NCBI RefSeq assembly: GCF_947498635.1 | Contig: NZ_CANMKV010000003.1 | Coordinates: forward strand, 1-64,000 | Origin: an uncultured Microbulbifer sp. | GTDB taxonomy: Bacteria > Pseudomonadota > Gammaproteobacteria > Pseudomonadales > Cellvibrionaceae | DNA length: 64,000 bases | Direction of reading: 5' to 3' | Part shown: positions 28,372-44,880 of the stretch, piece after piece | Layout: each line of letters begins with the position of its first letter | Numbering within the stretch: position 1 is the first letter of the stretch | The notes under the pieces: model-generated | Told to the model about the DNA's origin: nothing | Databases searched by the model: none | Seen by the model: the letters and a program-made list of their open reading frames with translations, nothing else | Position numbers and translations under genes: made by a program

Positions 28372-28396
28372 ACATAGTGCCCTCACATGAAAGTAA

Positions 28397-28862: not shown

Positions 28863-29833
28863 TGATGAGCTACTGCCAACTGAGCGAGAACGAACGATAC
28901 CAGATTTACAGCCTAAGAAAAGCCGGGTGCTCTCAAAAAGCAATAGAAAAATTGTTAGAGTGGCATCCCTCGACGATCAGCCGAGAGCTACTAGGTAATA
29001 TAGGCTTGCGAGGATATCGCCCAGGGTAAGCACATAAGCTTGCAGAGCTAAGACACCAGCAAGCGTATAAGACAAAGAAAGTGGCTGATGGCGTGTGGCA
29101 AAAAATAGACACTTTAATTCGGAAAGAATTGAGCCCTCAACAGACGGCCAACTATTTAAAGAGACATACGGGTGTATCGTTACATCATGAGACGATCTGC
29201 CAACTATTTTATTTAGATCAAACAAATGGTGAAAACTTATACAAGCATCTTAGGGCTGCATCAAAGCCCTATCGCAAGTGCTACGGTGAGTATGATCGGC
29301 ACGAAAAGATCAGAAACAGAGTCAGCATAGATAAGCGGCCAGCGATTGTTGACCGAATGAATCGAATAGGTGACTGGGAAGGTGATACCGTTATAGGCAA
29401 GGGGCGAAGCGGAGGATTGCTGACTAAGGTCGAACGTAAGACGTTATTTTCTGTCATTATTGGTTTGACAGGAAAACGATCTGACTTGTTGGCAGAGGCA
29501 GCAATAAGCCATTTGGTGAGCTTCAAAGATAAAATCAAGAACATTACCATTCGACAATGGTCTAGTATTCTCTGGTTAAGAAACGATTGCAGAAGGCTTA
29601 GAAACCGATATTTATTTTGCCCACCCATATTCATCCTGGAAAAGAGGGGACAACGGAAAACTAATGGCATAATTCTACAGCACTTCTCAAAGGATACTGA
29701 CTTTAATAAAGTTACAGGCGAGCAGGTTCAATTTTTAATGGATCGCCTAAGTAGTGGACTTAGACCGAGCCGAAGTGGAAGGTCACCGAATGAGTTCTTT
29801 ATGAGAATGCAAGATAATCTACTTGTGAAATAA
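28863..29833 (+). pseudogene. IS30-family transposase, degenerate
   Basis: Joined across lesions the reading frames give an IS30-type DDE transposase. The start MSYCQLSENERYQIYSLRKA with HPSTISRE is the N-terminal helix-turn-helix; RIGDWEGDTVIGKG carries the first catalytic Asp; the end reads RSPNEFF. Defects: an in-frame TAA about 57 codons in (near 29026), a frameshift near 29548 just before the second Asp region (the sequence for FDNGLVFSG lies in another frame), another stop there, and a second frame change near 29670. It cannot encode an active transposase. It sits about 1.2 kb from the metabolite locus. Confidence 0.85.
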
Positions 29834-30175
29834 GGGAATTGTAGTTGTTAATTGAAGCCACGTTTTACATTTTCAGGTATTATATTAATTATATCCGAGA
29901 GACTGATTTTCTCAGTATTTGTCCATGCTACCTATCCATTTCGATTATTAAAACTGTACTAAGTACAGTTAAAGGTAAGTTTGCTAATTAGAATTAAATG
30001 AATATCTGTAAATGAAGAAGAGTTTTACTGCAGGTGTGTCTAGAAAAGGCAACTGTGTTAGCGCAGTTGCCTTTGAATGGAAGATGAGGCTGGCAGGTTG
30101 TTGCTGATTGGTAGAATTGTTTTTCTTAAACCTCATATAGGACGAATTTGGATGTCACCTAATTCCAACTTCTAG
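29834..30175. other. Intergenic region between IS30 remnant and LysR gene
   Basis: It contains the terminator hairpin at 30045-30074 and otherwise no credible gene or repeat. Sequence just past 29833 (GTTAATTGAAGCCACG) may be the right end of the IS. Confidence 0.35.
30045..30074 (-). terminator. Terminator downstream of the LysR gene
   Basis: AAAGGCAACTG and CAGTTGCCTTT pair perfectly around an 8-base loop and are followed on the minus strand by TTTTC. It lies about 100 bases past the LysR stop. Confidence 0.7.
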
Positions 30176-31048
30176 TTATGTATATTGGGAATTAATATAA
30201 GAAATAAGCCTTTGCACAGGACTATCGACAGAAATGTTGGGTGGCCATACAGCGTAGGCGGGTAGCGGTGGTAACTGCCACTCGGGTAAAATTTCTTCAA
30301 CACCGTCAGAAGAATTAAACAGAAACCTTGGAGGTGCAGCCAAGCCGAGTCCACACATTGCCATCCGATAGGATGCTTCGACGTTATCCACTATGGCGAC
30401 TGGGTTGTAACAGATCTTGAAATGGCCATGATCACGATGAATAAAAGTGCGGCTGCTTGGGCGCATAGTGAGACCGATCCAGGGAGCGTCCTGTAAATCT
30501 CGGGGGTGTTCGAAGAGACCATGGCGGCGCACGAAATCGGTACTGGCCACTAATACCCGATCCAACATAAAAATCTTACGTGCCTTTAGACCGCTATCGG
30601 GCATATCACCAAGACGGATTGCGAGGTCAATACCCTCACCAATGAGGTCGTTGTGAAGATCACTGCATAAGAGGTGTAGATGTAAATCAGGTTCCCGGGA
30701 GGCAAAGGATGAAATCTCGCTTACCAGCCGACTATTTATCAGAATAGCTGGAATGGCAACTCGTAACTTACTACCCCCACGCCTGCTGACATTCCTGTAA
30801 TCACGAAGATTATCAGAATATAGCTCCAATATTTTTTTCGCAACTCCGAAAATGGCTTTGCCATCTTGAGTCAGCGAAAGCTTACGCGTATTACGGTACA
30901 AGAGGGCAACGCCGAGGCTTTCTTCTAGCTTGGAAACATACTGGCTGGCACTGGATATTGACATATCCAGTGCATGCGCAGCAGAGCGGAATGATCCACC
31001 CTCAACTACTTTTGCGAATACGATTAAATAGCGTACATCCTTTAACAC
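30176..31048 (-). CDS. LysR-family regulator, divergent from the metabolite locus
   Basis: A 290-residue LysR-type regulator. The winged helix is VEGGSFRSAAHALDMSISSASQYVSKLEESLGVALLYRNTRKLSLT near the N-terminus; the effector domain has LRVAIPAILINSRLV, GEGIDLAIRLGDMPDSGLKARKI and GLGLAAPP, as in the CrgA/DmlR-like group. The GTG at 31048 with GGAG 8 bases upstream is chosen; 57 further codons upstream show no LysR character. Divergent orientation to DUF2000 and the genes behind it points to control of that locus. Confidence 0.85.
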   Translation of the reverse strand: MLKDVRYLIVFAKVVEGGSFRSAAHALDMSISSASQYVSKLEESLGVALLYRNTRKLSLTQDGKAIFGVAKKILELYSDNLRDYRNVSRRGGSKLRVAIPAILINSRLVSEISSFASREPDLHLHLLCSDLHNDLIGEGIDLAIRLGDMPDSGLKARKIFMLDRVLVASTDFVRRHGLFEHPRDLQDAPWIGLTMRPSSRTFIHRDHGHFKICYNPVAIVDNVEASYRMAMCGLGLAAPPRFLFNSSDGVEEILPEWQLPPLPAYAVWPPNISVDSPVQRLISYINSQYT

Positions 31049-31272
31049 GTATATAACTCCATTTATATGATTAGTCGATCTAAAATAAGTTGAAATAAGC
31101 GAAAAGTATATTTTAATTTTTTGTGGATAATCAATTAGGCGTTTTTGGGATAAAGTCATTAGATCGGTGAGCACTACCACAATATAAGAAAATTTTAAGA
31201 TAAGCATTACATTGTGCATGTGATCGAAAATGGTGCGTTAGGGCTTTCATTCAATTTGCTTTTCTTAACCGG

Positions 31273-31291
31273 CTAACATTTCTGTGGTTAG
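31273..31291 (+). promoter_or_regulatory. Candidate LysR-type operator
   Basis: CTAAC and GTTAG form an inverted repeat 9 bases apart, about 35 bases before the DUF2000 start, in the region between the divergent LysR and DUF2000 genes. Its symmetry is what a LysR dimer could read, but the arms are short. Confidence 0.3.
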
Positions 31292-31325
31292 TCAGTCAAT
31301 AGATTAGAGGCTGGAGGGCATTGTC

Positions 31326-31739
31326 ATGTCTGATAGAAAGTTTGTATTGATTTTAGATGAGAGTTTGCCACCTGGTGTTTTGGCGAATACAGCGGCCGTA
31401 CTGGCGATGAGCGTTGGCAAGTTGTGCCCGGAAATTGTTGGCAGGGATCTATTTGACAGTACTGGGAATGTACGACGTGGAATCACAACTATGGCTTTGC
31501 CGGCACTAAAAGGTAATGGTGAGTTATTGCGAGAACTGAGGATGAAGTTACAAGAATACGAGCCGGGCCTTATTGTGGTGGACCTTATCGGGGCTACTCG
31601 TACAACAAAATCCTATGAAGAGTACGCTGAGGTTCTCTCAGAAACACCAGAAGAAGAGCAGCAGTATATGGGCATTGCCTTGTACGGTGATAAAAAAATT
31701 GTAAATAAATTTAGCGGAAACTTACCTCTATTAAGGTAG
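31326..31739 (+). CDS. DUF2000 family protein
   Basis: A 137-residue protein matching DUF2000 (a peptidyl-tRNA hydrolase 2-like fold): KFVLILDESLPPGVLANTAAVLAMSVGKL near the start, PALKGNGELLRELR and a C-terminal YGDKKIVNKFSGNLPLLR. Biochemical role unknown. The ATG follows GGCTGGAGG. It is the first gene after the divergent LysR regulator and 51 bases before the iron oxidase gene; whether it belongs to the pathway or is a bystander is open. Confidence 0.82.
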   Translation: MSDRKFVLILDESLPPGVLANTAAVLAMSVGKLCPEIVGRDLFDSTGNVRRGITTMALPALKGNGELLRELRMKLQEYEPGLIVVDLIGATRTTKSYEEYAEVLSETPEEEQQYMGIALYGDKKIVNKFSGNLPLLR

Positions 31740-31790
31740 TTAACTTAATAAGTTGCGCTTGGTGATAGATCAATAAACAAGGAGAGTTCT

Positions 31791-32588
31791 GTGAAAACAT
31801 TAGATGTAGCTGAAGCCAGTACTGTTGGTAGTGACGTAGCAGATCGCGAGGTGAGGTACTTGATTCCTGAGAGCGTTTACGATTACGACCACCCGGAAGT
31901 TATTTACTGGACAAAATATTTCCAGGAAGAGGCGGCAAAACACAACGTATTTGTCAATATTAATGCCACTATAACAAGTAAACGTAGTATTACCGCGGCT
32001 GAAAGTATGGCTACCGCATGGTACGACTTCACTCGCTATGTTCCCGTATTTCTCTGCAAGGCGGTCGCTCTCACCACCGATCCGGAGCGCCAACACCACC
32101 TTATCCAGATCGCCTACGATGAACTCGGAGGAAGGGATAAGGATTTCATCCATTCCAACCTGTTCCTGGAAGCGATTAAGGATGCGGGAATCGAACTGAT
32201 CAGTGAATCTGCCGCCTCCATAAAGGAAGTGCTTTCCGGTCTGGACAGAACGCTGGTTGGCATCAAGAGCCAGTTTGGGATTGTCGGCCTGCTTCTCAGC
32301 TTCGAGATCATCGCAGAGGAAAACATCGAGACTTTGTTCAACTGCCTCTGCCATGACCAGAAGTGTGAAAGGCCGCTGTCAGACAGCCCCTTCTTCAAGA
32401 TCCACAGAGCGGACGAGACAGAGCATATCAGGCACTCGGTTGCCAACTATCTGCGTTTTTGCAAAACAGATACTCAGAAGCGCGAATTCAAGGAGTCCTT
32501 CGATGCCGGAATCGATTTCTGGCAGCGCTTTTGGGACCAGAATGCCCGCATCATCAATATGGAAACCGATCTGAGAGCGACAGCGTAA
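31791..32588 (+). CDS. Haem-oxygenase-like non-haem diiron oxidase (HDO superfamily)
   Basis: A 265-residue helical protein with the metal pattern of haem-oxygenase-like di-iron oxidases (iron-containing redox enzyme group). E111-x9-H121 lies in YDELGGRDKDFIHSN; E172 is in LSFEIIAE; H205, E209 (or D208) and H212 lie in FKIHRADETEHIRHS, giving H-x3-E-x2-H. The same spacing occurs in BesC/SznF-type enzymes, which cleave, desaturate or N-oxygenate amino acids. GTG start after AAGGAGAGTTCT. The first 240 bases are lower in G+C than the rest. The ATP-grasp ligase gene follows after 13 bases, so an amino-acid substrate is likely. Confidence 0.75.
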   Translation: MKTLDVAEASTVGSDVADREVRYLIPESVYDYDHPEVIYWTKYFQEEAAKHNVFVNINATITSKRSITAAESMATAWYDFTRYVPVFLCKAVALTTDPERQHHLIQIAYDELGGRDKDFIHSNLFLEAIKDAGIELISESAASIKEVLSGLDRTLVGIKSQFGIVGLLLSFEIIAEENIETLFNCLCHDQKCERPLSDSPFFKIHRADETEHIRHSVANYLRFCKTDTQKREFKESFDAGIDFWQRFWDQNARIINMETDLRATA

Positions 32589-32601
32589 GGGGGCAGCGCC
32601 G

Positions 32602-33837
32602 ATGACTACGGTCGTGTTTATTGAAACGAATTTCAGTGGCTTGGATGCCATCCTGTACTGCAAATCGAAGGGTTACAAGTCTGTGCTGGTGAGCGACAGC
32701 CACGAGCGCTTCAAGAAATGGTTCCCAAAATCCTGCATGTACAAACTGGATCAGGTGGATCAGCTGATTCAAGTTGGGAATTCAAACGACATCTCCGAGG
32801 TCAAGCAGGCGCTGCAGGACAACCTGGACCGGGTCGACGCCGTGCTCACGTTTGCGGAAATACGCACGGAGATGACGGCGCGACTCGCGCGAGATCTGGA
32901 GCTCAGGGGGCCGGACCCGGAATCGATCCGGATCGCACAGGACAAATACTGCTTCCGCGAGGTGTTGTCTGAAAAGGGCGCAGATGATGTCGGCTGTATC
33001 AAGGTGGATACGGCCGAACAGCTGGCTGCTGCAAAGAATGATATCGCCTATCCCTGCTTCATCAAGCCGGTTCAGGGGCACTCCAGTATCGGCGCCGTGG
33101 TTTGTCGGGGAGTGGATGACATGGAGGCCCTGGCCGGAAAACTCTCAGGCATCGATGAAGACTGGATTTCCAAGGCCTTTGTAGTCGAGGACTACCTGCA
33201 GGGAAAGCTGGTCAGTGTGGAAATCCTTACCCTCGGTGAAGGGGTCCATCAGGTCGTCGGCATCGCAGACCGGGACCTCATCAATGACTGTGTGGAGGTT
33301 GGTGCCTCTTTTCCCCTGCAGAACCCGTTGGCGGAACAGATCGAGAAGAAGGCCTGCGCCGCCCTGGATGCCATCGGCTATCACCACGGTCCCAGCCATG
33401 TAGAGATGATGATCACCGAGGCAGGCCCACACCTGGTGGAAATCAATACAAGGGTCGGCGGTAGCGGTCACTCCATTATGCAGGACCTGGCGACAGGTCG
33501 GTCGATTGTTGGCGACTGTGTGGAACTCTGCCTGGGCAACCTGGATGCCGGAGAACGTCTCTACGAACACCGGAAGGGCGCCGCCTGGAAGTGTCTGGTA
33601 TCCAGTGAGAGCGGTGTTCTCGAGGCGCTGCCAACGGAGGAGGAGATTGCCGAGTTGCCGGGTGTCGAGCACGTCTGGTTGCACAAGGGGGCCGGTGAAA
33701 AAATCGAAGCTGCGAGCTCCAACTATCACTGGATACTCCAGGTAATGTGCTCTGGTAAATATCAGGCGCAAGCCAAGAAAAATGCGGACAACGCGATTGG
33801 GCGGGCCGCAGAACTTACCCGTATCCGCAAGGCATAA
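32602..33837 (+). CDS. ATP-grasp ligase, L-amino-acid ligase type
   Basis: A 411-residue ATP-grasp enzyme that would activate a carboxylate as acyl phosphate and join it to an amine. The pre-ATP domain (1-105) starts TTVVFIETNFSGLDAILYC; ATP contacts include DKYCFREVL and PCFIKPVQGHSSIGAVV; Mg2+ ligands are in HVEMMITEAGPHLVEINTRVGG. A C-terminal extension of about 100 residues resembles the LAL_C2 domain of dipeptide ligases such as BacD and RizB. Neighbours (HDO, Fe/2OG oxygenase, peptide transporters) support a peptide product. Substrates cannot be read from sequence. Confidence 0.82.
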   Translation: MTTVVFIETNFSGLDAILYCKSKGYKSVLVSDSHERFKKWFPKSCMYKLDQVDQLIQVGNSNDISEVKQALQDNLDRVDAVLTFAEIRTEMTARLARDLELRGPDPESIRIAQDKYCFREVLSEKGADDVGCIKVDTAEQLAAAKNDIAYPCFIKPVQGHSSIGAVVCRGVDDMEALAGKLSGIDEDWISKAFVVEDYLQGKLVSVEILTLGEGVHQVVGIADRDLINDCVEVGASFPLQNPLAEQIEKKACAALDAIGYHHGPSHVEMMITEAGPHLVEINTRVGGSGHSIMQDLATGRSIVGDCVELCLGNLDAGERLYEHRKGAAWKCLVSSESGVLEALPTEEEIAELPGVEHVWLHKGAGEKIEAASSNYHWILQVMCSGKYQAQAKKNADNAIGRAAELTRIRKA

Positions 33838-33995
33838 GGCAGGTATCGCCCTGCCAGCCAGGCGGAGCTTTCTCCCAGGGGTGGGGCGGGTATCGTAGAT
33901 TCGGACAGCTTCGGTAATTGTCCGCATTGCAATCACGCATTTCGTATTTGAATGAGCCTCAGGGCTTTTTCTGTCCTATTTTGGTACAGATTATT

Positions 33996-35282
33996 ATGAG
34001 TACACTGAATGATGCCGCGGATTTCCGCGGAAGGCTGAACCTTGCCCTCGGTGCGGCTGCATTCACCATATCTTCGGCAGGGTCTGTGCTCTTGCACATT
34101 GTTCTCGCGCTTGCCATTTATGGTGAAACAGGGTCCGGTCTGGTTACCGCCATATTTGTTTCCCTGCAATGGCTGCCCGTATTTATCGTTATCCTGTACA
34201 GGAGCGATTGGGACTTTGGCATGGAGCCGCGCAAGCGCTGGTATCTTCTTGATATCACCAGCGCCCTACTGACACTGTTAATCATCCCGTTCGTCTGGGA
34301 GAGCAACTACATAGCAATTGTTCTCCTGCTGTTGCTGCGCGGCCTGTTTGACCATGTAAGCAGAATCACCAAAACAGTTATCGCGCCCTATATATTTCCC
34401 AGGGAAAAATTGAGCTATTACGCCTCGTTTATGCAGAGCGGTTACCATGTGGGGATTGCCGTGGCTGCAGTTGCAGGTGTGTTTTTGGTTTCGTCGGTAA
34501 GCCTGGAAATCGCCATTCTGTTCGATGCCGTAACCTTTCTAGTCTCTGCGGCCCTGGTCTATCTGATTCGCAATGTCAGCGAAGAGAAGTTCCCGGAATC
34601 TGGCAGAAGAAACCCAATTGGGCAGAGGTGTATCGATTATTTCTCTAGCCTTAAGGAAGATCCGAGGCTCTTCTTCTGCTGCATGCTACCGCCGCTGACA
34701 GCGGCCTTCTTTCAGGGCACCTACAGTGTGCTGCAGCCAATATACCCGGGCGAGCAGTTTGCGTTGGACTCATCGGCAGTGTCGGCGTCCTATGTAATGG
34801 CGAGTGTGGCGATAGTCCTGGGTTCTTCCGCTTTTGCGCTCTTCTGTAAGTATTCGAGAATCTTTGAGCGGGATTTCTCCGCCGTCATCCTGGTCGCTCT
34901 AATGGGGTCACTGCTTGCTTGCGGAAGTTATATGGCATCCGTTTACACCGGGTCGGTAGTCGCAAGCGCGATATTTTTCACTGTGATGGTGTTCCTGTTT
35001 GAGTTCGTATGGATGCTTGGATATAGCGGTATTGTCACGCTTTCACCGAAGAACCGCGTTGGATCAGTATTTGCGATTACTTTCGCCATAGGCTGTTTCC
35101 TGGGCAGTGTCACAGCGCTTGTGACCGGTGGCTTACTGGACCTGTTCAACAATAACTTTGTTTATACCGTCGGTATATTCATGGCCGTATACAGCCTGTT
35201 GATCCTGGCGAGTTACGCGCTTTACCGGCGATGGTCCTATTCCGTTGGCAGCGCACAGCTTTCCGGGGCTTCCGCAGGTTAG
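33996..35282 (+). CDS. MFS exporter
   Basis: A 428-residue, probably 12-helix MFS protein of the EntS/macrolide-efflux-like shape (ITSALLTLLIIPFVWES, LLLLRGLFDHVSR, VTFLVSAALVYLIRN). The most likely start is the ATG at 33996 (MSTLNDAADF), though upstream ribosome-binding sequence is weak and a start 78 bases earlier is possible. Placed between the ligase and the 2-oxoglutarate oxygenase, it probably exports the pathway product and so gives self-protection. Confidence 0.78.
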   Translation: MSTLNDAADFRGRLNLALGAAAFTISSAGSVLLHIVLALAIYGETGSGLVTAIFVSLQWLPVFIVILYRSDWDFGMEPRKRWYLLDITSALLTLLIIPFVWESNYIAIVLLLLLRGLFDHVSRITKTVIAPYIFPREKLSYYASFMQSGYHVGIAVAAVAGVFLVSSVSLEIAILFDAVTFLVSAALVYLIRNVSEEKFPESGRRNPIGQRCIDYFSSLKEDPRLFFCCMLPPLTAAFFQGTYSVLQPIYPGEQFALDSSAVSASYVMASVAIVLGSSAFALFCKYSRIFERDFSAVILVALMGSLLACGSYMASVYTGSVVASAIFFTVMVFLFEFVWMLGYSGIVTLSPKNRVGSVFAITFAIGCFLGSVTALVTGGLLDLFNNNFVYTVGIFMAVYSLLILASYALYRRWSYSVGSAQLSGASAG

Positions 35283-35311
35283 TGAGTAAGCAGAAAAAAA
35301 TGGAGTGGAAA

Positions 35312-36094
35312 ATGGGAAACTGGATATCTAGTGAGTTGCATGACCTGACGCCTGAAAATATGAATCTGCTGCTGGAGCAGAAGATTCCGGCTATCAGGGT
35401 AAAGGACTTTGTCGACCGGGAAACCTGTGATGTGGTCGCTTCGCGACTGCTGGAGATGCGCTTTGCCAACTATGACCATCTGAAAGACATTCCGGTCCAT
35501 CAGGTTGGCCTGTGCCACAACCAGTGGGCACATGATGATAAAAATGTTTACTTCGGGAAATGCCAGGAGGCCGGGGAAGTTATCGAGGAGATCTACAAGG
35601 GCCTGGATATAGACCCAGTACAGATGGTGATTCAGTCGATCCGGGACAATGCTGGGCGGGAGGCGTCCGTCTTCCATGAGGAAGGCTATGGTGACTACTT
35701 TGCCGGCGCCTTTCGCAGCTTCAAGGGGCATGGAAAGCTGCACGCGGACCATGCGCCCAGCCATATCAACGCGCCCTGGGCTGTTACGAAAATTAGCAAG
35801 CAGCTTACCTGGAATGTCTATTACTGTGCGGAGTCGAATTCCGGCGAGCTGGTCATCTACGACACCATTCACACAGCGGAAAACGACAAGATGAAAGTCG
35901 AGGGGGATTACTACTTCCCCTACGAAGTTCTGGAAAGGGAAGACTGCGTGAGAGTCATCCCGAAGGTGGGTGACCTCATTATTTTCAATACACAAAACTT
36001 CCATGAAATTCTCGGCACCCCGGAGGGGAACAGGATTTCGCAGACATCGTTTGTCGGTTTGCGCGAGGATGGCAGCCTCGGACTCTGGTCTTAG
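35312..36094 (+). CDS. Fe(II)/2-oxoglutarate-dependent oxygenase
   Basis: A 260-residue enzyme of the prolyl-hydroxylase-like Fe/2OG group. The iron triad is H-x-D in GKLHADHAP and a distal His in FNTQNFHEILG, with the 2OG-binding Arg in GNRISQTSF. The intact carboxylate Asp argues for a hydroxylase or desaturase, not a halogenase (which would have Ala/Gly). The ATG at 35312 has GGAG 6-7 bases upstream; an ATG 12 bases earlier is possible. It follows the MFS gene by 29 bases. Confidence 0.82.
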   Translation: MGNWISSELHDLTPENMNLLLEQKIPAIRVKDFVDRETCDVVASRLLEMRFANYDHLKDIPVHQVGLCHNQWAHDDKNVYFGKCQEAGEVIEEIYKGLDIDPVQMVIQSIRDNAGREASVFHEEGYGDYFAGAFRSFKGHGKLHADHAPSHINAPWAVTKISKQLTWNVYYCAESNSGELVIYDTIHTAENDKMKVEGDYYFPYEVLEREDCVRVIPKVGDLIIFNTQNFHEILGTPEGNRISQTSFVGLREDGSLGLWS

Positions 36095-36175
36095 GCGAGA
36101 GCATGGCAGAAATGGCATTGGCAACACCGTGTCATTCCTTAGGTTAAGTTAAGGACCAATACCTCGGTATAAATC

Positions 36176-37777
36176 ATGAAAAAAATATTCGCATTATTGA
36201 CGCTTTGTTCGGCAGCGGTGGTATCGATTCCAGCCTTTTCCGCGAGCAGCCTGGTTTACTGTTCCGAAGGCAGCCCTGAATCCTTCAACCCGCAGATCAC
36301 CCTGTCCGGAACGGCGAGAAACGCCACGGCGCCAACGCTGTACAACCGTTTGCTGGATTTCGAGCCCGGCACGACCAAGCTGGTCCCTTCGCTGGCAAAG
36401 CGCTGGGAAATCTCCCCCGATAACCGCAGCTACACCTTTGAGCTGCGCGATGATGTGTCCTTTCACCGTACCGCCTACTTCACGCCAAGCCGTACTATGA
36501 ATGCGGACGACGTGCTCTTCTCGTTCAACCGACAGCTGGACAAGGAACATCCATACCACCTGGTGGGCGGCGGCACCTATCAGTACTTCCAGGGTATGGG
36601 TATGGACAAGTTGATCACCAAGGTCGAGAAGCTGGGAGACTACAGGGTGAGAATCGAGCTGTCACAGCCCGAGGCTCCGTTTTTATCCAATCTTGCGATG
36701 CCGTTCATGTCCATTCTTTCCAAGGAGTACGGCGAGCAACTGCAGAGGGATAATCGCAAGGCAGACATCGATGTGCTGCCGGTGGGCACCGGGCCGTTTA
36801 AGTTCCGCCGTTACCTGAAAGGCACCAGCATCCGCTACAAGGCAAATGAGGCCTACTGGCAGGGGCGGCCGGCGATAGACAACCTGGTCTTCGCCATCAC
36901 CCCGGACCCCAGTGTGCGCTATATGAAACTGAAAAAGGGCGAGTGTGACCTGGTTGTCTACCCCTCTCCCAGTGACATTGCGCAGATCAAGTCGCAGTCT
37001 GGCATGGTGCTTGCGGAGGAGGACGGTCTCAATATCGGCTACCTGGCCATGAATACGGAAAAGCCTCCCTTCGACAATGTCCAGGTGCGCCGCGCCATTG
37101 CCCACGCACTCAACAAGCAGGCGTATATCAATGCCGTCTACCTCGGCAATGCGGAACCGGCGATCAACCCCTATCCGCCGAGTATGTGGTCCTATAACGA
37201 GGAGGTTGCACAGTACGAGTACGACCCGGCAAAAGCCAGGAAACTGCTTGAGCAAGCGGGCCACGCCGATGGCTTTAAAGTCACACTCTGGACCTTGCCT
37301 GTTAGCCGCCCCTACAACCCCAATGGCCGGAAAATGGGCGAAATGATGCAGCAGGACCTGGCTAGGATCGGTGTCGAGGTCGAGCTTGTCAGTTACGACT
37401 GGGGTACCTATCTGGACAAGGTCAAGCGCGGCGAGCACGATATGGTGCAGCTCGGCTGGGCCGGCGACAACGGCGATCCGGACAACTTCCTGTATACCCT
37501 GTTCAGCTGCGATTCGGTACAGCGCGGCTCGAATAACTCCCGCTACTGCCGGCCGGCGTTTGAATCCCTGATCAAGCAGGCGCGGCGCGAGAGCGACTTC
37601 GCCACTCGCGAGAAGCTGTACCGTGAAGCGCTGAGGGTATTCAGCGAAGACGTGCCGGTGATTCCGATCGCCCACTCGAAGGTCTTTCGCGCGCTGAGTC
37701 CGCGGGTTGAGGGCTACGTCATGGATCCCTTCGATGTGGACAACTTCTATCCCCTGTCCGTTTCGAGCAAGCGCTAG
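36176..37777 (+). CDS. DppA-type peptide-binding protein of an ABC importer
   Basis: A 533-residue periplasmic solute-binding protein of family 5. A signal peptide (1-22, ending PAFSA) precedes LVYCSEGSPESFNPQ; ADDVLFSFNRQLD, GTGPFKFRRYLKG and GDPDNFLYTLFSCDSVQRGSNNSRYC follow DppA closely, including the Cys pair that is disulfide-bonded in E. coli DppA. DppA-like proteins bind dipeptides, and some bind haem, nickel complexes or peptide antibiotics. It heads a five-gene transporter set embedded in the metabolite locus. Confidence 0.87.
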   Translation: MKKIFALLTLCSAAVVSIPAFSASSLVYCSEGSPESFNPQITLSGTARNATAPTLYNRLLDFEPGTTKLVPSLAKRWEISPDNRSYTFELRDDVSFHRTAYFTPSRTMNADDVLFSFNRQLDKEHPYHLVGGGTYQYFQGMGMDKLITKVEKLGDYRVRIELSQPEAPFLSNLAMPFMSILSKEYGEQLQRDNRKADIDVLPVGTGPFKFRRYLKGTSIRYKANEAYWQGRPAIDNLVFAITPDPSVRYMKLKKGECDLVVYPSPSDIAQIKSQSGMVLAEEDGLNIGYLAMNTEKPPFDNVQVRRAIAHALNKQAYINAVYLGNAEPAINPYPPSMWSYNEEVAQYEYDPAKARKLLEQAGHADGFKVTLWTLPVSRPYNPNGRKMGEMMQQDLARIGVEVELVSYDWGTYLDKVKRGEHDMVQLGWAGDNGDPDNFLYTLFSCDSVQRGSNNSRYCRPAFESLIKQARRESDFATREKLYREALRVFSEDVPVIPIAHSKVFRALSPRVEGYVMDPFDVDNFYPLSVSSKR

Positions 37778-37779
37778 CA

Positions 37780-38826
37780 GTGAACAGGCTTCGGACCATA
37801 GGGTTAAGGCGGCCGCTAGAGATGGCCACGACACTACTGGGGGTTACACTGCTGGCGTTCTTCCTGATTCGCGTGGCCCCAGGAGATCCCGTCCTGTTGT
37901 TGATCGGAGAGCGCGGATCAGACCCTGAACAATATCGTGAAATGGTCGTGCGCCTCGGTTTGGATAATTCGCTGATCGTACAGTATCTGCAATTCGTCGT
38001 CAGTGCGCTGCAGGGCGACCTCGGTGTTTCCGTAGTTTCCCAGCAGAGTGTTATCGGGGAGTTGCTAGCGCGCTGGCCAGCCACCATCGAACTGGGGGTC
38101 AGTGCGCTGCTGATCGCCTGCCTATTGGGAGTTCCCGCCGGTGTGATTGCGGCAGTCTATCGCAACAGTGTGGCGGATTTCCTAATTATGTCGGTTTCTA
38201 TATTCGGCTACTCGATACCGGTGTTCTGGTGGGGCCTTGTACTGATCATGTGTTTTTCGATTGGGCTGGACATCACGCCGGTGGCCGGGCGCATCGACAT
38301 CCTCTACGACATACCGCCAGTGACGGGCTTCATGCTGATGGACACGCTGGCACCACAGGTAGTGCAAGAATACGGATTTTCCGCCTTCGGCAGCGCGCTG
38401 GGGCACCTGGTCCTACCGGCCCTGACCATGGCCACGATACCGCTGGCCGTGTTTGCCAGGACTACGCGTTCGAGCATGCTCGAAGTGTTGTCGGAGGACT
38501 ATGTTCGAACCGCGCGCGCCAAGGGATTGAGTGAATTTAGGGTCATCTGGCGTCACGCTTTCCGCAATGCGCTGATTCCCATTGTTACAGTGGGCGGTGT
38601 GCTGTTTGTCACAACGGTGATCACTGGTGCCATCCTGACGGAAACCATCTTCGCCTGGCCCGGCGTTGGCCGCTATATCGTCAACAGTGTCTACGCACGC
38701 GACTACCCGGTAATCCAGGCCAGCATTCTGCTGATTGGCATTTTTGTGGTGCTGGTAAATGGGCTGATTGATTACCTCTACGGAGCGATTAACCCCGCAG
38801 TCGGGAGGAGGGACAGTGCAAGCTAG
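37780..38826 (+). CDS. DppB-type ABC importer permease
   Basis: A 348-residue permease with about six helices. LLAFFLIRVAPGDPVLLLIGERG is the usual N-terminal motif, and TARAKGLSEFRVIWRHAFRNALIPIVT is the EAA loop that docks to the ATPase. The GTG start lies 2 bases after the dppA-type stop. Length is typical of DppB. Confidence 0.9.
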   Translation: MNRLRTIGLRRPLEMATTLLGVTLLAFFLIRVAPGDPVLLLIGERGSDPEQYREMVVRLGLDNSLIVQYLQFVVSALQGDLGVSVVSQQSVIGELLARWPATIELGVSALLIACLLGVPAGVIAAVYRNSVADFLIMSVSIFGYSIPVFWWGLVLIMCFSIGLDITPVAGRIDILYDIPPVTGFMLMDTLAPQVVQEYGFSAFGSALGHLVLPALTMATIPLAVFARTTRSSMLEVLSEDYVRTARAKGLSEFRVIWRHAFRNALIPIVTVGGVLFVTTVITGAILTETIFAWPGVGRYIVNSVYARDYPVIQASILLIGIFVVLVNGLIDYLYGAINPAVGRRDSAS

Positions 38827-39667
38827 GATTGCAATTGGTTTTCGCCTGATGCCGGGCGGCTGGGGGAACATCGGCTTTCTTGTGCTGGTGTCCCTGCTGC
38901 TATTGGGGTTTATCGCCCCGCTGCTGCTGGATCTGTCGCCCTACCGGATCAGTGCCGAGCTGCTGGCGCCGCCGAGCTGGAATCCGCTATCGGTGCCGGT
39001 ACTGGGCACGGACGACCTGGGGCGGGACATGTTTGCGCGGCTCGTTTACGGCGCGCGCTGTTCTCTCGGCATCGGTTTTGTGGTGGTGGCGGTATCGCTG
39101 GTGATAGGTGTCGGGCTCGGGTTGCTGGCGGGCGTCTACGGCGGTTGGCTGGACGCCCTGATTATGCGGCTGGTGGACCTGCTAATGTGCCTGCCCAGTA
39201 TCCTGCTGGCCATTGTCATTGTCGCGGTGCTCGGTTCCGGGCTCGGCAACGCCATTGTCGCGGTGACCATTATAGGTATTCCGCGGTTTGTGCGCGTGGT
39301 TCGCTCGATGACCATCCAGGAAATGCAGAAGACCTATGTGATGGCGGCCTTTGCCAGCGGCAGCTCCCGCCTCCGGGTACTCTGGTCCGAGGTTCTGCCG
39401 AACTGTGTGCCGCCGGTGATAGTGCAGGCCGCCCTCGGTTTCAGCGATGCGATTCTGGAAATTGCCGCGCTCGGATTTCTCGGGCTGGGCGCCAAGCCCC
39501 CGGTGGCAGAGTGGGGCGCCATGCTCGCGGACGCGCGCCCGTTTATCGAGTCCCACCCCCTGCTGGTTGTGATGCCCGGGGCCTGCATCCTGCTTACGGT
39601 ACTGAGTTTCAACCTGGTGGGAGATGCGCTGCGCGACCGCCTCGATCCGAAGTTGGCAAGGCTATGA
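38816..39667 (+). CDS. DppC-type ABC importer permease
   Basis: A 283-residue permease. LLAPPSWNPLSVPVLGTDDLGRDMFARLVYGARCSL is the hallmark of DppC/OppC proteins, and the EAA loop reads YVMAAFASGSSRLRVLWSEVLPN. The GTG at 38816 has a strong GGAGGAGGG site and overlaps the preceding gene by 11 bases. Confidence 0.9.
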   Translation: MQARIAIGFRLMPGGWGNIGFLVLVSLLLLGFIAPLLLDLSPYRISAELLAPPSWNPLSVPVLGTDDLGRDMFARLVYGARCSLGIGFVVVAVSLVIGVGLGLLAGVYGGWLDALIMRLVDLLMCLPSILLAIVIVAVLGSGLGNAIVAVTIIGIPRFVRVVRSMTIQEMQKTYVMAAFASGSSRLRVLWSEVLPNCVPPVIVQAALGFSDAILEIAALGFLGLGAKPPVAEWGAMLADARPFIESHPLLVVMPGACILLTVLSFNLVGDALRDRLDPKLARL

Positions 39668-40614
39668 TTCTATCGGTCAAAAACCTGAGTATTGAAATCG
39701 ACGGGAAACCGGCGGTGCGCGGCCTGACATTTTACGTCGCGGCCGGAGAAGTTCTCGGGGTGGTCGGCGAATCCGGCTGTGGAAAAAGCATGGTCAACAT
39801 GGCCTTGATGGGACTGCTGCCGGACGGCGTGAACGCATCTGCCGAGCAAATGGAGGCTTGCAGCGTCGATCTGCTGCGGGCTGGGCCCCGCGACTGGCGG
39901 GCGCTACGCGGCGGCAAAATGGCAATGATATTCCAGAACCCCATGAGCGCTCTGAATCCTTGCCTGACGGTTGAGCGCCAGTTGAAGGAATCGGTGTTGC
40001 AAGCGCGCACCGGTATGAGCCGCGCTTCTGCGCGCGCCGAAGCATTGCGCCTGCTGGACCGGGTCGGAATCGCCCATGCCGGCGCGCGCCTGAAGAGCTA
40101 TCCGCACGAGCTGTCGGGTGGCATGGCGCAGCGGATCATGATCGCCATGGCGGTGGCCTCCGCGCCGCAGCTGATGATAGCGGACGAGCCGACCACCGCA
40201 CTTGATGTCACGGTCCAGGCGCAGATACTGCAGTTGCTAGAGGAAATCCGTCGGGATACCGGTATGGCCCTGATTCTGGTGTCCCACGATATCGGTGTTA
40301 TCGAGCAGTGTGCGCACCGGGTACAGGTGATGTATTCCGGGCAGATAGTGGAGAGTGGCGATGTTGGCGAGGTCATCGCCTCACCCTGCCACCCCTACAC
40401 CCGGGGCCTGGTGGCGGCCCAGCCCGGCCGCAGCGGCCTGCCACCCAAGAGCAGACTGACCACGATTGATGGCAGCGTGATACCGATTACCGAAGAGGTA
40501 GAGGGATGCCGCTTCCGGCTCCGTTGCAGCCGTACCGACCATCGCTGCGAGCAGCCACAGCGGATGCGGCGCGCGGCGGCGAATTCGTACAGGGAGAGCC
40601 GATGTCATTGGTAA
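39664..40614 (+). CDS. DppD-type ABC importer ATPase
   Basis: A 316-residue ATPase: Walker A GESGCGKSM, signature LSGGMAQRIMIAMA, Walker B LMIADEPTTALD, switch SHDIGV, and the C-terminal oligopeptide-transporter Cys cluster GCRFRLRCSRTDHRC seen in OppD/DppD. ATG overlaps the preceding stop by 4 bases. Energises uptake together with the next gene product. Confidence 0.92.
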   Translation: MILSVKNLSIEIDGKPAVRGLTFYVAAGEVLGVVGESGCGKSMVNMALMGLLPDGVNASAEQMEACSVDLLRAGPRDWRALRGGKMAMIFQNPMSALNPCLTVERQLKESVLQARTGMSRASARAEALRLLDRVGIAHAGARLKSYPHELSGGMAQRIMIAMAVASAPQLMIADEPTTALDVTVQAQILQLLEEIRRDTGMALILVSHDIGVIEQCAHRVQVMYSGQIVESGDVGEVIASPCHPYTRGLVAAQPGRSGLPPKSRLTTIDGSVIPITEEVEGCRFRLRCSRTDHRCEQPQRMRRAAANSYRESRCHW

Positions 40615-41462
40615 ATATGCCCGGCGCCGGGGCCAACGAAGTGGTGCTGCGCGTCGAAAACCTCTGCAAGGTGTTTCGCCTTCCGGGGGCTCACGGCCAG
40701 GCTTTTAAAGCGCTCAACCAACTCAATCTCGCCGTGACCCGCGGGCGTACCCTGGCGGTAGTGGGTGAGTCGGGCAGTGGCAAGAGCACCATGGCCCAGC
40801 TGGTGATGAAGTTACAGCGGCCGAGTGCCGGCCGGGTCAGCCTGCGCCTGGACAGCGGAATGCGCGATATCGCCGATCTGCCCGCGCGGGAGCTGTACCG
40901 CAAGATCCAAATGGTGTTCCAGGACCCCTACGCCTCGCTTAATCCACGCCAGAGAATCTGGCGCATAGTGTCGGCCCCGCTCTGCAACTACGAGCGCCTG
41001 AGCCGCGACGAGCGCCAGCAGCACGCGCTGCATTACCTACAACAGGTGGGGCTGGGGGAGGCGCAGTTGCATGCCTTTCCCCATATGCTGAGCGGCGGTC
41101 AGCGCCAAAGGGTGAATATTGCTCGCGCACTGGCCACGAAGCCGGAGATTCTGATACTGGATGAGCCGCTGTCTGCGCTGGATGTTTCGGTGCAGGCGCA
41201 GATCATCAATCTGCTGCTGGACCTGCAGCGGGACCTGGGTCTTACATACATTTTTATATCCCACGACCTGGCGGTGGTGCGCCACTTTGCGGACCAGGTG
41301 CTGGTGATGAAGTCCGGCGATATGGTCGAGTGGGGCGATGTGGACCAGGTGCTCGAAAATCCGGCCCACGTCTACACCCGGCAGCTGTTGCAGAGCGTGC
41401 CGGGCAGGTTGATCGATTTGCCGGTGCGAACACAATCGGCAAGTGTGGTGGCCGACGGTTGA
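40602..41462 (+). CDS. DppF-type ABC importer ATPase
   Basis: A 286-residue ATPase: Walker A GESGSGKSTMAQ, MVFQDPYASLNPRQ (family-typical Q loop), signature LSGGQRQRVNIARA and Walker B LILDEPLSALD. It lacks the C-terminal Cys cluster of the usual DppF, ending soon after the YTRQLLQSVP segment. The ATG at 40602 with AGGGAGAGCC upstream overlaps the previous gene by 13 bases. Confidence 0.9.
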   Translation: MSLVNMPGAGANEVVLRVENLCKVFRLPGAHGQAFKALNQLNLAVTRGRTLAVVGESGSGKSTMAQLVMKLQRPSAGRVSLRLDSGMRDIADLPARELYRKIQMVFQDPYASLNPRQRIWRIVSAPLCNYERLSRDERQQHALHYLQQVGLGEAQLHAFPHMLSGGQRQRVNIARALATKPEILILDEPLSALDVSVQAQIINLLLDLQRDLGLTYIFISHDLAVVRHFADQVLVMKSGDMVEWGDVDQVLENPAHVYTRQLLQSVPGRLIDLPVRTQSASVVADG

Positions 41463-41532
41463 TCGTTGCGGGATTGCCGGGAAGCGGGCAGTTCCGTTTG
41501 AAGGTCGGGTTAGGAATAGATCGGGGGGAAAC

Positions 41533-41829
41533 ATGGAAGCTGAGGCACTGTTAAGCGATCGTGAGGCAGAGGATGATCTCGTCCGCCTGCGGGTCACTAT
41601 CAACGGCCGCAGACACGAGGGAGAGGGAAGCAAGAAACTGACGATCCTTGAGAACATCGAAAAAATGAGGCTGCCAATTCGCAGCTCCTGCCGCAGGGGG
41701 CGCTGTGGGTCTTGCCGAGTCAGGGTGCTCTCTGGAGAGCTGCGTGATAACGGCGTTCGCCTCAATGAAGATGTACTGTCCTGTTCGTCTTATCTGGCTG
41801 GAGATGGGGACATCCTATTGCCTTACTGA
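41533..41829 (+). CDS. Plant-type 2Fe-2S ferredoxin
   Basis: A 98-residue ferredoxin. The cluster ligands are C-x4-C-x2-C in SSCRRGRCGSC with the fourth Cys in EDVLSCSSY, the plant-type arrangement. The start is the ATG at 41533 after a G-rich ribosome-binding sequence. It is the only small electron carrier in the locus; HDO enzymes need outside electrons, so it is a good candidate donor. That pairing is inference. No ferredoxin reductase gene is seen beside it. Confidence 0.85.
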   Translation: MEAEALLSDREAEDDLVRLRVTINGRRHEGEGSKKLTILENIEKMRLPIRSSCRRGRCGSCRVRVLSGELRDNGVRLNEDVLSCSSYLAGDGDILLPY

Positions 41830-41938
41830 ACACTTTTCTAAGGCTCTATTTTGTATGTGATATTTCGAAGGAGGCGTTTCTTTGTGACGCGACACTCCAT
41901 CATGTCCATATATTGTGAAACAAGAGGCATAAGATAAT

Positions 41939-42532
41939 ATGTCAGCGTTGATTGAAAGTATCCTTACAAGGAAGTCTCAGCCGGTCATCGATAATTATAT
42001 CGCGCTGTTAGATATCGAACGTATAGTCCAGTGTGCGCTCACTGCGCCCGATCACCGCGCATTGAAGCCCTGGCGATTTATTCTCTGCTCCAGGGAGGAT
42101 TGCGAAAAACTGATAAGGCGAGTGGAATTGGTAGCTCTGGCACAGGAAGCTAGTACCGCCTCTGTTGAGGAGGTCTCTGAGGCATTGCAGCGACTGTTTA
42201 CCACGGCGCCCCAGGTTATGATCTGTGTGCTGAATGTCGATCAAAGTGGTCGGGTGCCTAAAATCGAACAGGTACTATCCGCCGGCGCTGCTATCCAGAA
42301 TATGATTATAGCTGCGGAAGCAATGGGTCACAGTGGTTACTGGCGGACCGGCAAGCTGGCCTATAGTCCGCTTTTGATAGCGGCTCTGGGGCTGGAGGAA
42401 AATGCATTGATCTGCGGCCTGTTGTGTTTGGGACATTTACACAAGCGGTCGCCGCTGCAGGCCCCACAGCGCCCGGAGCTAGACCGTCATTTTTTTACTT
42501 TAGAGTCTCTTATGTGCGGTGAGTGTATCTAA
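41939..42532 (+). CDS. Nitroreductase-family (YdjA-like) flavoprotein
   Basis: A 197-residue flavin-dependent oxidoreductase of the small YdjA-like nitroreductase branch. ILTRKSQPVID, ALTAPDHRALKPWRFILC (FMN contacts) and SAGAAIQNMIIAAEAMGHSGYWRTG are family-typical. It would transfer electrons from NAD(P)H. It may reduce a pathway intermediate or the ferredoxin, but it may also be a bystander; it lies 109 bases after the ferredoxin gene, with lower G+C. Confidence 0.78.
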   Translation: MSALIESILTRKSQPVIDNYIALLDIERIVQCALTAPDHRALKPWRFILCSREDCEKLIRRVELVALAQEASTASVEEVSEALQRLFTTAPQVMICVLNVDQSGRVPKIEQVLSAGAAIQNMIIAAEAMGHSGYWRTGKLAYSPLLIAALGLEENALICGLLCLGHLHKRSPLQAPQRPELDRHFFTLESLMCGECI

Positions 42533-42636
42533 AAAATTATGGGTAGAATGACTAGCCGCCTAAAGGGGTATAGCTTGTGAGCTGGCCATAAATATGCCCT
42601 ACAGCCAGATAACCACAATAAATTCAGGAATTGGCT

Positions 42637-43236
42637 ATGTCACTTTTTTTTGCAATGTTCAGTTTTTCCCTAGTTATGTCGATTACGCCTGGGCCGGTTA
42701 ATATGGTCATAGTGTCCTCTGGAGTTAGCCACGGGTTTGGGCGTACTATGCCGTTTGTTTCTGGAGCAACTATTGGATTCACCCTATTATTGGCGGCTAT
42801 TGGTTTCGGCTTCTATCAGCTCTTGGAAGTTTATCCTTTGTTCCTCAAGTATTTGGCCCTGGTCGGCTCGGCCTATGTTATTTTCATTGGTTGCAAGATC
42901 GCACAAGCATCGGGGTCTATCGATATTTCTGAGAGGGCTAGGCCGCGTTTCCATGAGGGCTTTCTGTTACAGTGGCTTAACCCCAAAGCGTGGGTGGCTT
43001 GCGTATCTGGTGTCGCACTTTTTTCCAACCCAAATAGCCACGTCAGTCTGGTTACCTTCGTGTCGATTTATTTTCTAGTATGCTACTCATCGTTAGCAGT
43101 GTGGGCTCTGGTTGGGGATAGAGTACGGCTATTGCTAGGTACGGAATTGCGAGTACGTATTTTCAATATAGTTATGGGGAGTTTGTTGATTGGTTGTGCC
43201 CTATATTTGCTTTACCTACAATTCTTTGGCAGTTAG
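42637..43236 (+). CDS. LysE/RhtB-family amino-acid exporter
   Basis: A 199-residue inner-membrane protein with six hydrophobic segments. SITPGPVNMVIVSSGVSHGFGR is the LysE/RhtB signature, and LLQWLNPKAWVACVSGVALF is the second conserved block. Members export amino acids or derivatives. At the right edge of the accessory region, it may protect the cell from the modified amino acid; AT-rich composition suggests it could equally be a separate arrival. Confidence 0.8.
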   Translation: MSLFFAMFSFSLVMSITPGPVNMVIVSSGVSHGFGRTMPFVSGATIGFTLLLAAIGFGFYQLLEVYPLFLKYLALVGSAYVIFIGCKIAQASGSIDISERARPRFHEGFLLQWLNPKAWVACVSGVALFSNPNSHVSLVTFVSIYFLVCYSSLAVWALVGDRVRLLLGTELRVRIFNIVMGSLLIGCALYLLYLQFFGS

Positions 43237-43383
43237 CAATCACTGCGGATAGAAAACTAATAAAAAATGCGAAGGCCTGGATAACGCATTAGCGCCGAGT
43301 ATTTAAGTAGTTATAATTCAAAATTTATCTGGTACAAACTGGGGCAGGCCCTTACTAACGGTGAATGGCTTTAGCAATTCACC

Positions 43384-44880
43384 TTAGAGGGTGGGGATAG
43401 CGGCCTGGCGTCTGTCGAGATTGCGGTAGGCCAAAGCCTCGGCTATCTGCGCGGTGCCAATCTTTTCCAATTTGGCTAGGTCCGCGAGGGTGCGTGCCAC
43501 TTTGAGTACCCGGTGGTAGCTGCGTGCGGAGAGCCCTAGCTTTTCTGCGGATTGCCGTAGAAGAAGTTTTTCCCTGTCGCCTAGTACACAGTATTTCTCA
43601 AGTTCGACGCCTTTAAGCAGGCTATTGATTGTGCCCTGTCTTTGCATCTGTTGTTGCCGGGCGCCGCAGACTCTCTCTCTTACGCACTCGGATGATTCGC
43701 CGGCAGGCGTGTCCTGCAGTTGCACCGCGCTCATTGCGCCAACTTCCACCTGCATATCGATGCGGTCTAATAATGGTCCGGACAACTTGTTGCGATAGCG
43801 GTCTATCTGATCCGGTGTGCAGCGACAGCGTGGTTCTCCCAGATAGCCACAGGGGCAGGGGTTCATAGCGGCCACCAGTTGGAAGCGAGCGGGGAAGGTG
43901 ACCTGGGCGCGTGCGCGGGAAATGCGCACTTCGCCATTTTCTAAAGGCTCACGCAATATTTCCAGGGCGTGACGTGGAAACTCAGGCATCTCATCCAGGA
44001 ATAATACGCCGCGGTGGGCCAGCGAGATTTCTCCGGGGCGGGGGGTGCTGCCGCCGCCGACCAAGGCGGTCGGGGAGGCGCTGTGATGCGGGGCGCGGAA
44101 TGGCCTTTGACGCTGGTGGGGCAAACCGGCACTGGAGTAGACTGCGGCAACTTCTATCGATTCGCTGGTGGTTAGTGCCGGCAAGATGCCGGGCAGGCGG
44201 CTCGCCAGCATAGTCTTTCCCGTTCCCGGCGGGCCGTAAAATAACAGGTTGTGGCCACCCGCGGCAGCCACTTCTAGGGCGCGTCTCGCCTTGAGTTGAC
44301 CGCGCACATCTGCAAGGTCTGCACAGTAAGTGATCGCTTGCTCGGCCTGTTGTTCGGCGCGGGGCAGTTTTTCTCTGCCGTGCAATTCTGCGCATACCTC
44401 CAGTAGTGATCTGGCACTACCGACTTCGCTGCCGGCCAGTGCGGCCTCGCTGCCGTTCTCTCTGGGGACAACTAATTTACGCTTTGCAGCAGCGCTGGCG
44501 ATGGCTGCGGGAAGTGCACCACTGACTTGGCGCAGTGCACCGGTAAGTGCCAGTTCCCCAAGAAACTCATAGCGATCCAGAGGGCCAGTAGGAACCTGTC
44601 CAGAGGCCGTTAGTATGCCAATGGCGATAGCGAGATCGTAGCGCCCCCCCTCCTTGGGCAAGTCGGCGGGTGCGAGATTGACGGTGATACGGCGCTGGGG
44701 GAATTCAAAGTGGCTGTTGACCAGGGCGCTGCGCACCCTGTCGCGGCTCTCGCGGACGGCGGCCTCTGGCAGGCCGACGATATGAAAGGCAGGTAGCCCA
44801 TTGGCCAGGTGGGTCTCAACGGTGACCAGTGGGGCACTGACACCGAGTTGCGCGCGTGTATAGGTAACTGAAAGGCTCAC
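43384..44880 (-). CDS. YifB family Mg-chelatase-like AAA+ ATPase (ComM-like)
   Basis: A 498-residue protein with an N-terminal Lon-substrate-like domain (LGVSAPLVTVETHLANGLPAFHIVGLP), a chelatase-type AAA+ core (Walker A YGPPGTGKTML, Walker B GVLFLDEMPEF) and a C-terminal helical domain (SARSYHRVLKVARTLADL). ComM of this family promotes branch migration in natural transformation. GTG start after AAGGATGACAAT. Marks the return to core genome order. Confidence 0.92.
   Translation of the reverse strand: MSLSVTYTRAQLGVSAPLVTVETHLANGLPAFHIVGLPEAAVRESRDRVRSALVNSHFEFPQRRITVNLAPADLPKEGGRYDLAIAIGILTASGQVPTGPLDRYEFLGELALTGALRQVSGALPAAIASAAAKRKLVVPRENGSEAALAGSEVGSARSLLEVCAELHGREKLPRAEQQAEQAITYCADLADVRGQLKARRALEVAAAGGHNLLFYGPPGTGKTMLASRLPGILPALTTSESIEVAAVYSSAGLPHQRQRPFRAPHHSASPTALVGGGSTPRPGEISLAHRGVLFLDEMPEFPRHALEILREPLENGEVRISRARAQVTFPARFQLVAAMNPCPCGYLGEPRCRCTPDQIDRYRNKLSGPLLDRIDMQVEVGAMSAVQLQDTPAGESSECVRERVCGARQQQMQRQGTINSLLKGVELEKYCVLGDREKLLLRQSAEKLGLSARSYHRVLKVARTLADLAKLEKIGTAQIAEALAYRNLDRRQAAIPTL

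Follow-up and report, generated by a model that had tools for sequence, protein, structure and literature searches.

An inserted Microbulbifer gene cassette with two non-haem iron enzymes, an amino-acid ligase and a Dpp-type importer may make, export and re-import a small peptide

Why would a bacterium keep, side by side, what look like the genes to build a small peptide, to send it out of the cell and to take it in again? This question is raised by a stretch of 64,000 nucleotides from an uncultured Microbulbifer sp. (assembly GCF_947498635.1, 4.52 Mb; contig NZ_CANMKV010000003.1, positions 1 to 64,000), referred to here as the window. At positions 30176-43236 the window holds a gene cassette that begins with a LysR-type regulator on the minus strand. 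It continues on the plus strand with a DUF2000 protein, a haem-oxygenase-like di-iron oxidase (HDO), an ATP-grasp ligase, a major facilitator superfamily (MFS) exporter, an Fe(II)/2-oxoglutarate (Fe/2OG) oxygenase, the transporter proteins DppABCDF, a [2Fe-2S] ferredoxin, a nitroreductase and a LysE-type exporter. An earlier note on this DNA had described a compact metabolite locus at 31326..42532, a contiguous plus-strand run of genes faced by a LysR regulator. Calls of open reading frames (ORFs) and family scans located every gene it named, in the order it gave. Its edges proved too narrow: the facing LysR gene and the LysE gene travel with the unit and are included in the cassette here, since both accompany the core genes in Microbulbifer harenosus, M. 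halophilus and Algicola. The cassette is very probably a real, selected unit of amino-acid or peptide metabolism. There is about an even chance that it is mobile and self-sufficient, its genes making, exporting and taking back a small peptide (most probably a dipeptide) in which one amino acid has been oxidatively remodelled.

How fixed is this set of genes? The HDO was sought in one genome per species across 84,980 species with a short-peptide-pattern method that would miss distant members. The scan returned 33 pattern matches, of which four encoded a relative, in M. harenosus, M. halophilus, Azohydromonas caseinilytica and Algicola sagamiensis. A core of ten genes (HDO, ligase, MFS, Fe/2OG, DppA, B, C, D, F and ferredoxin) is collinear with the window in all four. 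Local identity to the core proteins of the window is 81-93% for both Microbulbifer loci; the Azohydromonas proteins reach 54-72%, and those of Algicola 41-69%, with the ferredoxin lowest. The LysR and DUF2000 genes adjoin the core in three of the four loci (M. harenosus, M. halophilus and Algicola), and LysE is found with it in the same three. The YdjA-like nitroreductase (41939..42532, plus strand; PF00881; NF008088, E 2.6e-27, below cut-off) is present in two, both Microbulbifer, and was not found with the Azohydromonas or Algicola core at E 0.01. Azohydromonas, a distant genus, has the core alone with none of the flanking cassette genes; DUF2000, LysE and a cassette-type LysR were not found over contig positions 1 to 34000. 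The earlier note had staked its reading on these genes being found together elsewhere. They do recur together, with the conserved core in every further locus, and there is good support for a compact locus that combines a pair of non-haem iron enzymes with a ligase and its own peptide importer.

Among the relatives, 3 of 96 carry the HDO, the own genome counted. Profile searches of samples of genomes returned the own genome only for the HDO (369 genomes of the class, E 1e-8) and for the ligase (274 genomes, E 1e-25), and the own genome with three distant ones for the Fe/2OG oxygenase (398 genomes of the phylum, E 1e-8). A sample of 120 relatives of the Azohydromonas genome gave the HDO in that genome only (E 0.001). 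No lone member of the HDO subfamily turned up in the pattern scan, which distant ones would escape. Carriage on plasmids was also considered and set aside, since a search of 72,556 plasmid records (E 1e-5) gave no match to the HDO.

Did the cassette arrive as a unit? The collinearity of the window with two cluster-free Microbulbifer genomes, G003 and G013, ends at 28372 and restarts at 43403, with 167 and 166 other bases between. Both thus lack, at this site, the stretch of about 15 kb at 28373..43402. Three cluster-free Microbulbifer stretches were compared; the third, G012, is rearranged there and uninformative. The empty site in two cluster-free relatives indicates that the cassette is an inserted unit. 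In M. harenosus and M. halophilus it lies at another site, adjoining a gene that resembles hutH by eye. No target-site repeat was seen, in that the insertion ends share no word of at least 10 bases. Besides the cassette, the insert contains a transposase-like ORF (29081-29833) that may mark the cassette's route of arrival. In the left part of the insert (window:28820-29840) this ORF looks IS30-like by eye, with no Pfam match at E 0.001. For 13 genes compared with their M. harenosus counterparts, the ratio of nonsynonymous to synonymous substitution rates (dN/dS) ranges over 0.043-0.122, with LysR left out and with dS near saturation for DUF2000 and LysE. These low values point to purifying selection on the 13 genes.

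What chemistry would such a unit carry out? The Fe/2OG oxygenase (35300..36094, plus strand; PF22814, E 6.7e-13) falls in the WelO5 family. The PF22814 (WelO5) model is matched by its members in all five loci, the window included (best E 2.6e-15), and the window protein scores 49.2 bits against a cut-off of 27. The model of the isoleucine dioxygenase HilA is matched weakly by the same five (best E 8.8e-6). The residues of a 2-His-1-carboxylate site and an arginine (H148-x-D150, H235 and R245) are invariant in all five. Halogenases of the WelO5 class usually have Ala or Gly in place of the iron-binding carboxylate (PMC8407142). A halogenase identity (HxG or HxA) was set aside, since HxD is kept in every member, and halogenation is not expected. 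From its motif the enzyme is expected to be of hydroxylase type, carrying out hydroxylation or desaturation. Its distant relatives give a hint of the substrate. All three (L014:7630-9074, L015:6188-7643 and L016:5298-8604) adjoin a gene of the aminoacyl-tRNA editing type. Two of these genes have a tRNA_SAD domain, scoring 30.4 and 23.2 bits where the cut-off is 24, one of them thus below it, and the other has a tRNA_edit domain (73.4 bits). An ATP-grasp gene also lies two genes from the relative beside tRNA_edit. Among the three relatives, one is matched by 2OG-FeII_Oxy_3 and has no WelO5 match at E 0.001. Such neighbours suggest that these oxygenases could yield free hydroxy-amino acids that are mischargeable to tRNA. 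By analogy, the editing-gene neighbourhood of these three hints, indirectly, at free amino acids as the substrates of the Fe/2OG enzyme.

The HDO (31791..32588, plus strand) is a member of PF14518 (Haem_oxygenas_2, E 1.3e-7), at 32.0 bits just above the cut-off of 28.9. All five HDO members match the model of BesC, the 4-chloro-allylglycine synthase (best E 7.1e-6; window protein 8.1e-4), and no other model does so in all five; BesC also came first in a PDB profile search (E 0.0084). The window protein reaches 18.9 bits against a BesC equivalog cut-off of 500. It would be a relative of BesC at most, BesC being its nearest named family and a remote one. When the HDO was searched against the PDB as a single sequence, BesC (E 0.024) came below a fragment of alpha-amylase (3bh4, E 0.0079), whose match covers a short unrelated stretch and was rejected as chance. 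The residues E111, H121, E176, E177, H205, D208, E209, H212 and H215 are invariant in all five members. The candidate ligands among them are E111, H121, E176/E177, H205, E209 and H212, with a spacing from H121 of 55-29-4-3. A plausible set of three histidines and three carboxylates appears to be kept, and the HDO likely has a di-iron site. Among studied enzymes, MboA from the mangotoxin (mbo) operon of Pseudomonas syringae has the ligands H89, E143, H172, D176 and H181 (PMC13185094). Their spacing of 54-29-4-5 is similar to that of the cassette HDO once the first ligand is left aside. The PDB matches of the cassette HDO did not include MboA. The reactions of HDOs are diverse, and only about a dozen of these enzymes have been validated (PMC13108848).

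The ferredoxin at 41533..41829 (plus strand; PF00111, Fer2) is proposed as a source of electrons for the HDO. Its cysteines C53, C58, C61 and C84 are invariant in the five loci. The YfaE model is its best match by number and by E-value (5 of 5, best E 5.5e-11), with the window protein at 35.0 bits, below the cut-off of 75. YfaE, the ferredoxin of class I ribonucleotide reductase, is likewise a small [2Fe-2S] protein, and both would serve a di-iron protein. The cassette ferredoxin differs in that it neighbours an HDO rather than ribonucleotide reductase. The proposal that it is the electron donor of the HDO is drawn from the analogy with MboA and its partner MboB. The alkene-to-alkyne step of MboA requires MboB, and chemical reductants are no substitute (PMC13185094).

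A likely size of the product is suggested by the ligase (32602..33837, plus strand). It has the ATP-grasp domain and the C-terminal domain of L-amino-acid ligases, with ATP-grasp_4 at 47.9 bits against a cut-off of 27 and LAL_C2 at 39.3 against 29.4. Its best solved relatives by profile are 3vot, the L-amino acid ligase BL00235 (E 6.5e-19), and 30vh (E 3.5e-16). A single ligase of this type would fit a dipeptide. The DUF2000 protein (31326..31739, plus strand; PF09391, E 6.6e-37) has 2gax (Atu0240) as its nearest solved relative (E 1.2e-4), and its fold is presumably akin to that of peptidyl-tRNA hydrolase. No gene for PTH2 was found in the own genome, and no DUF2000 member gave a PTH2 match. 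By analogy with the editing-type neighbours of the Fe/2OG relatives, DUF2000 may be a peptidyl-tRNA-hydrolase-like editing enzyme with a protective role.

Export would fall to the MFS protein (33996..35282, plus strand; PF07690, MFS_1, E 3.7e-19; TIGR00900, E 3.3e-21, below cut-off). Import would fall to five consecutive plus-strand genes whose best NCBIfam models are all those of dipeptide transporters. These are DppA, the periplasmic dipeptide-binding protein (36176..37777; NF043070, E 7.3e-199), the permeases DppB (37780..38826; NF008161, E 8.4e-109) and DppC (38849..39667; NF008160, E 6e-83 in a scan of the longer ORF from 38768), and the ATPases DppD (39664..40614; ABC_tran and oligo_HPY; NF008246, E 1.1e-85) and DppF (40602..41462; NF008453, E 1.5e-86, model positions 8-267 of 334). 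Internal ATGs are the likeliest starts of the MFS, Fe/2OG, DppC, DppF and ferredoxin genes within the ORFs listed. The five-gene set is that of the E. coli-type DppABCDF, and the nearest solved relatives of DppA are of the E. coli type (5f1q, 8z1y and 1dpp). R378 and D431 of DppA are kept in all five loci, at the positions of R355 and D408 in E. coli DppA. We take R355 to have an anchoring role there and the numbering to be offset by a 28-residue signal. D408 of the E. coli protein binds the N-terminus of the dipeptide (PMC3295651). Glutathione binders of the DppA family also use an Asp (PMC3295651), and the kept Arg/Asp pair would be compatible with other peptides too. The importer departs from the E. 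coli type in three ways: all of its components score below the equivalog cut-offs (DppA with 661.7 bits against 1005, DppB with 363.8 against 590), it is fixed within a biosynthetic cassette, and its DppF is short, with a C-terminus about 60 residues shorter than the family models. No second DppA was found at E 0.001 in three Microbulbifer genomes; Azohydromonas and Algicola each have one additional, weaker match.

How does the cassette compare with pathways already described? Clusters that join an HDO to an ATP-grasp ligase are an established kind, with 1447 HDOs near such a ligase and at least 25 unique clusters reported (PMC13185094). The cassette is best read as an orphan pathway within this kind; a literature search, which did not extend to the list of at least 25 clusters, found no description of it. 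The mangotoxin operon encodes the HDO MboA, its Fe2S2 partner MboB and free-standing ATP-grasp ligases, and its product is a short peptide (PMC13185094). Comparable gene types, an HDO, a candidate Fe2S2 redox partner (a ferredoxin, not a flavin reductase) and an ATP-grasp ligase, occur in all five cassette loci, the pairing of ferredoxin and HDO being proposed by analogy. Unlike the cassette, mangotoxin has two ligases, a tripeptide product and an arginine deiminase (MboE); MboA-E include no Fe/2OG enzyme, and no Dpp importer is described for it (PMC13185094).

The earlier note had likened the locus to the pathway of beta-ethynylserine (bes). This link is somewhat closer than was stated, in that the Fe/2OG enzyme matches the WelO5 family of carrier-independent halogenases and BesC is the nearest named HDO, and it is weakened by the remoteness of the matches and the kept HxD. 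Both systems place an HDO beside a carrier-independent Fe/2OG enzyme, and they share an ATP-grasp ligase, which in the bes pathway we take to be BesA. The cassette differs in its HxD motif and in its additional Dpp importer and ferredoxin, and no pyridoxal-phosphate enzyme (BesB) was recognised in it. The note's statement that the locus lacks the pyridoxal-phosphate enzyme and the halogenase of bes agrees with this, and no non-ribosomal peptide synthetase (NRPS) or polyketide synthase (PKS) was recognised in the cassette.

What can be read from the DNA itself is which genes are present and in what conserved order, the insertion, the purifying selection and the kept plausible metal-ligand and dipeptide-anchoring residues. 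The function proposed on this basis would run as follows. The Fe/2OG enzyme would hydroxylate a free aliphatic or basic amino acid, and the BesC-related HDO would desaturate or fragment the hydroxylated residue, its di-iron centre being reduced between turnovers by the cassette ferredoxin. The single ATP-grasp ligase would couple the modified residue to a second amino acid. The dipeptide would be exported by the MFS protein and re-imported by DppABCDF. Where present, LysE (42631..43236, plus strand; PF01810, E 5.5e-23) would clear free amino acid, and LysR would sense the product or a precursor. Alternatively, the Fe/2OG enzyme and the HDO would come into play after ligation and modify the peptide, like MboA in the mangotoxin pathway. 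The order in which hydroxylation precedes cleavage or desaturation by the HDO is put forward very tentatively. It is slightly less doubtful, yet still rather unlikely, that a dipeptide made by one ligase and tailored by the HDO and the Fe/2OG enzyme must return through a dedicated Dpp to serve as a signal, as a carrier of metal or as a warhead that is recycled, the HDO being powered by the ferredoxin and everything lying in one mobile cassette. To our knowledge, and after a literature search, no ligase-made dipeptide with a circuit of export and re-import has been described.

Several points weigh against this account. The active sites of the cassette enzymes are placed by alignment alone, and the matches of the HDO and the Fe/2OG enzyme to named enzymes are far under the cut-offs. 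The best PDB profile match of the Fe/2OG enzyme is WelO5 at a non-significant E of 0.12. In the HDO the first two ligands are 10 residues apart (3 in MboA), and the alignment does not distinguish between E176 and E177, D208 and E209, or H212 and H215 as ligands. The HDOs studied up to the time of one review need no protein effector (PMC13108848), MboB being the exception. MboB is itself a flavin/Fe2S2 reductase, whereas the cassette has a lone ferredoxin and no ferredoxin reductase in its ten-gene core. A few changes are enough for DppA-type proteins to bind other ligands, glutathione among them (PMC3295651). Finally, a producer would have no evident need to import its own product; recycling, metal recovery or signalling may be the reason.

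The main rival to a dipeptide circuit is a small metallophore, in which the peptide would chelate a metal, the MFS protein would export it and the Dpp-type importer would recover the metal complex in the manner of staphylopine. Loci for staphylopine and other opine metallophores have the same layout, an MFS exporter with an importer of the Opp/Dpp/Nik class. The cassette likewise unites biosynthesis genes, one MFS exporter and one five-gene importer of that class, and HDOs also serve in chalkophore synthesis (PMC13108848). However, DppA, B, C and F match dipeptide models best, well above those for staphylopine CntA/C/F and for nickel, and for DppD the CntF and CntD models also trail the dipeptide model. 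No TonB-dependent receptor was recognised by eye in the cassette, the rest of the genome not having been searched for receptors. On balance a metallophore is unlikely.

A signal system is marginally less probable again. Here a modified dipeptide or amino acid would leave the cell, return through Dpp and be detected by the facing LysR. The LysR ORF (30176..31219, minus strand; PF00126, HTH_1, and PF03466, LysR_substrate) probably starts near 31051, as alignments of its homologues begin at ORF residues 40-58. The gene lies beside DUF2000 and the core in four of the five loci, the window among them, and is divergent in the Microbulbifer loci. Two intergenic blocks are conserved in all three Microbulbifer loci and fit a regulated system: a 20-bp block between LysR and DUF2000 (31102..31121), which is identical in the three, and a 19-bp block upstream of DUF2000 (31219..31237), in which 18 of 19 positions are invariant. 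Both are possible regulator sites. Such a role is harder to reconcile with Azohydromonas, whose core has no such LysR nearby and gives weak LysR matches only (26-32% over ~97 residues), and with Algicola, where LysR is on the same strand as the operon. Promoter-like sites (5, shuffle mean 8.7) and terminator-like sites (13, mean 11.7) showed no excess over shuffles.

It is improbable that Dpp imports a foreign peptide for the iron enzymes to modify or detoxify, with MFS and LysE expelling the products. In favour of this reading, the three Microbulbifer genomes gave no other DppA-type system, and the two exporters are from different families. Against it, the core of every one of the five loci includes an ATP-consuming amino-acid ligase, which suits synthesis better than degradation, and the cassette has no recognised peptidase gene.

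The surroundings of the insert have features of their own. To its left lies a metallo-beta-lactamase-superfamily protein (window:26535-27419; PF00753, E 6.3e-22). The right-hand neighbour of the cassette is comM, which is matched as two halves in two Microbulbifer relatives, G004 (C343 and C244) and G016. In G016 both halves lie on a single contig (C3:142346-143176 and C3:172970-173629), some 30 kb from each other, which looks like the insertion of an element into comM. Elsewhere, some 119 bases (window:18146-18264) that are single in the window match four successive places in G003, spaced about 130 bases apart (L034:3489-3997). The same stretch has three matches in G013, so that it is a repeat with varying copy number.

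The possible role of the ferredoxin, the LysE exporter and the mobility of the cassette are additions to what the earlier note had described. With no NRPS or PKS recognised and a minimal set of ten genes, full reconstitution of the pathway is realistic. Three questions thereby become testable. Can a small ferredoxin be the dedicated redox partner of an HDO? Can a single residue be worked on first by one and then by the other of two enzymes, a WelO5-family oxygenase with an HxD motif and an HDO? And what does a producer gain from an importer for a dipeptide that appears to be its own?

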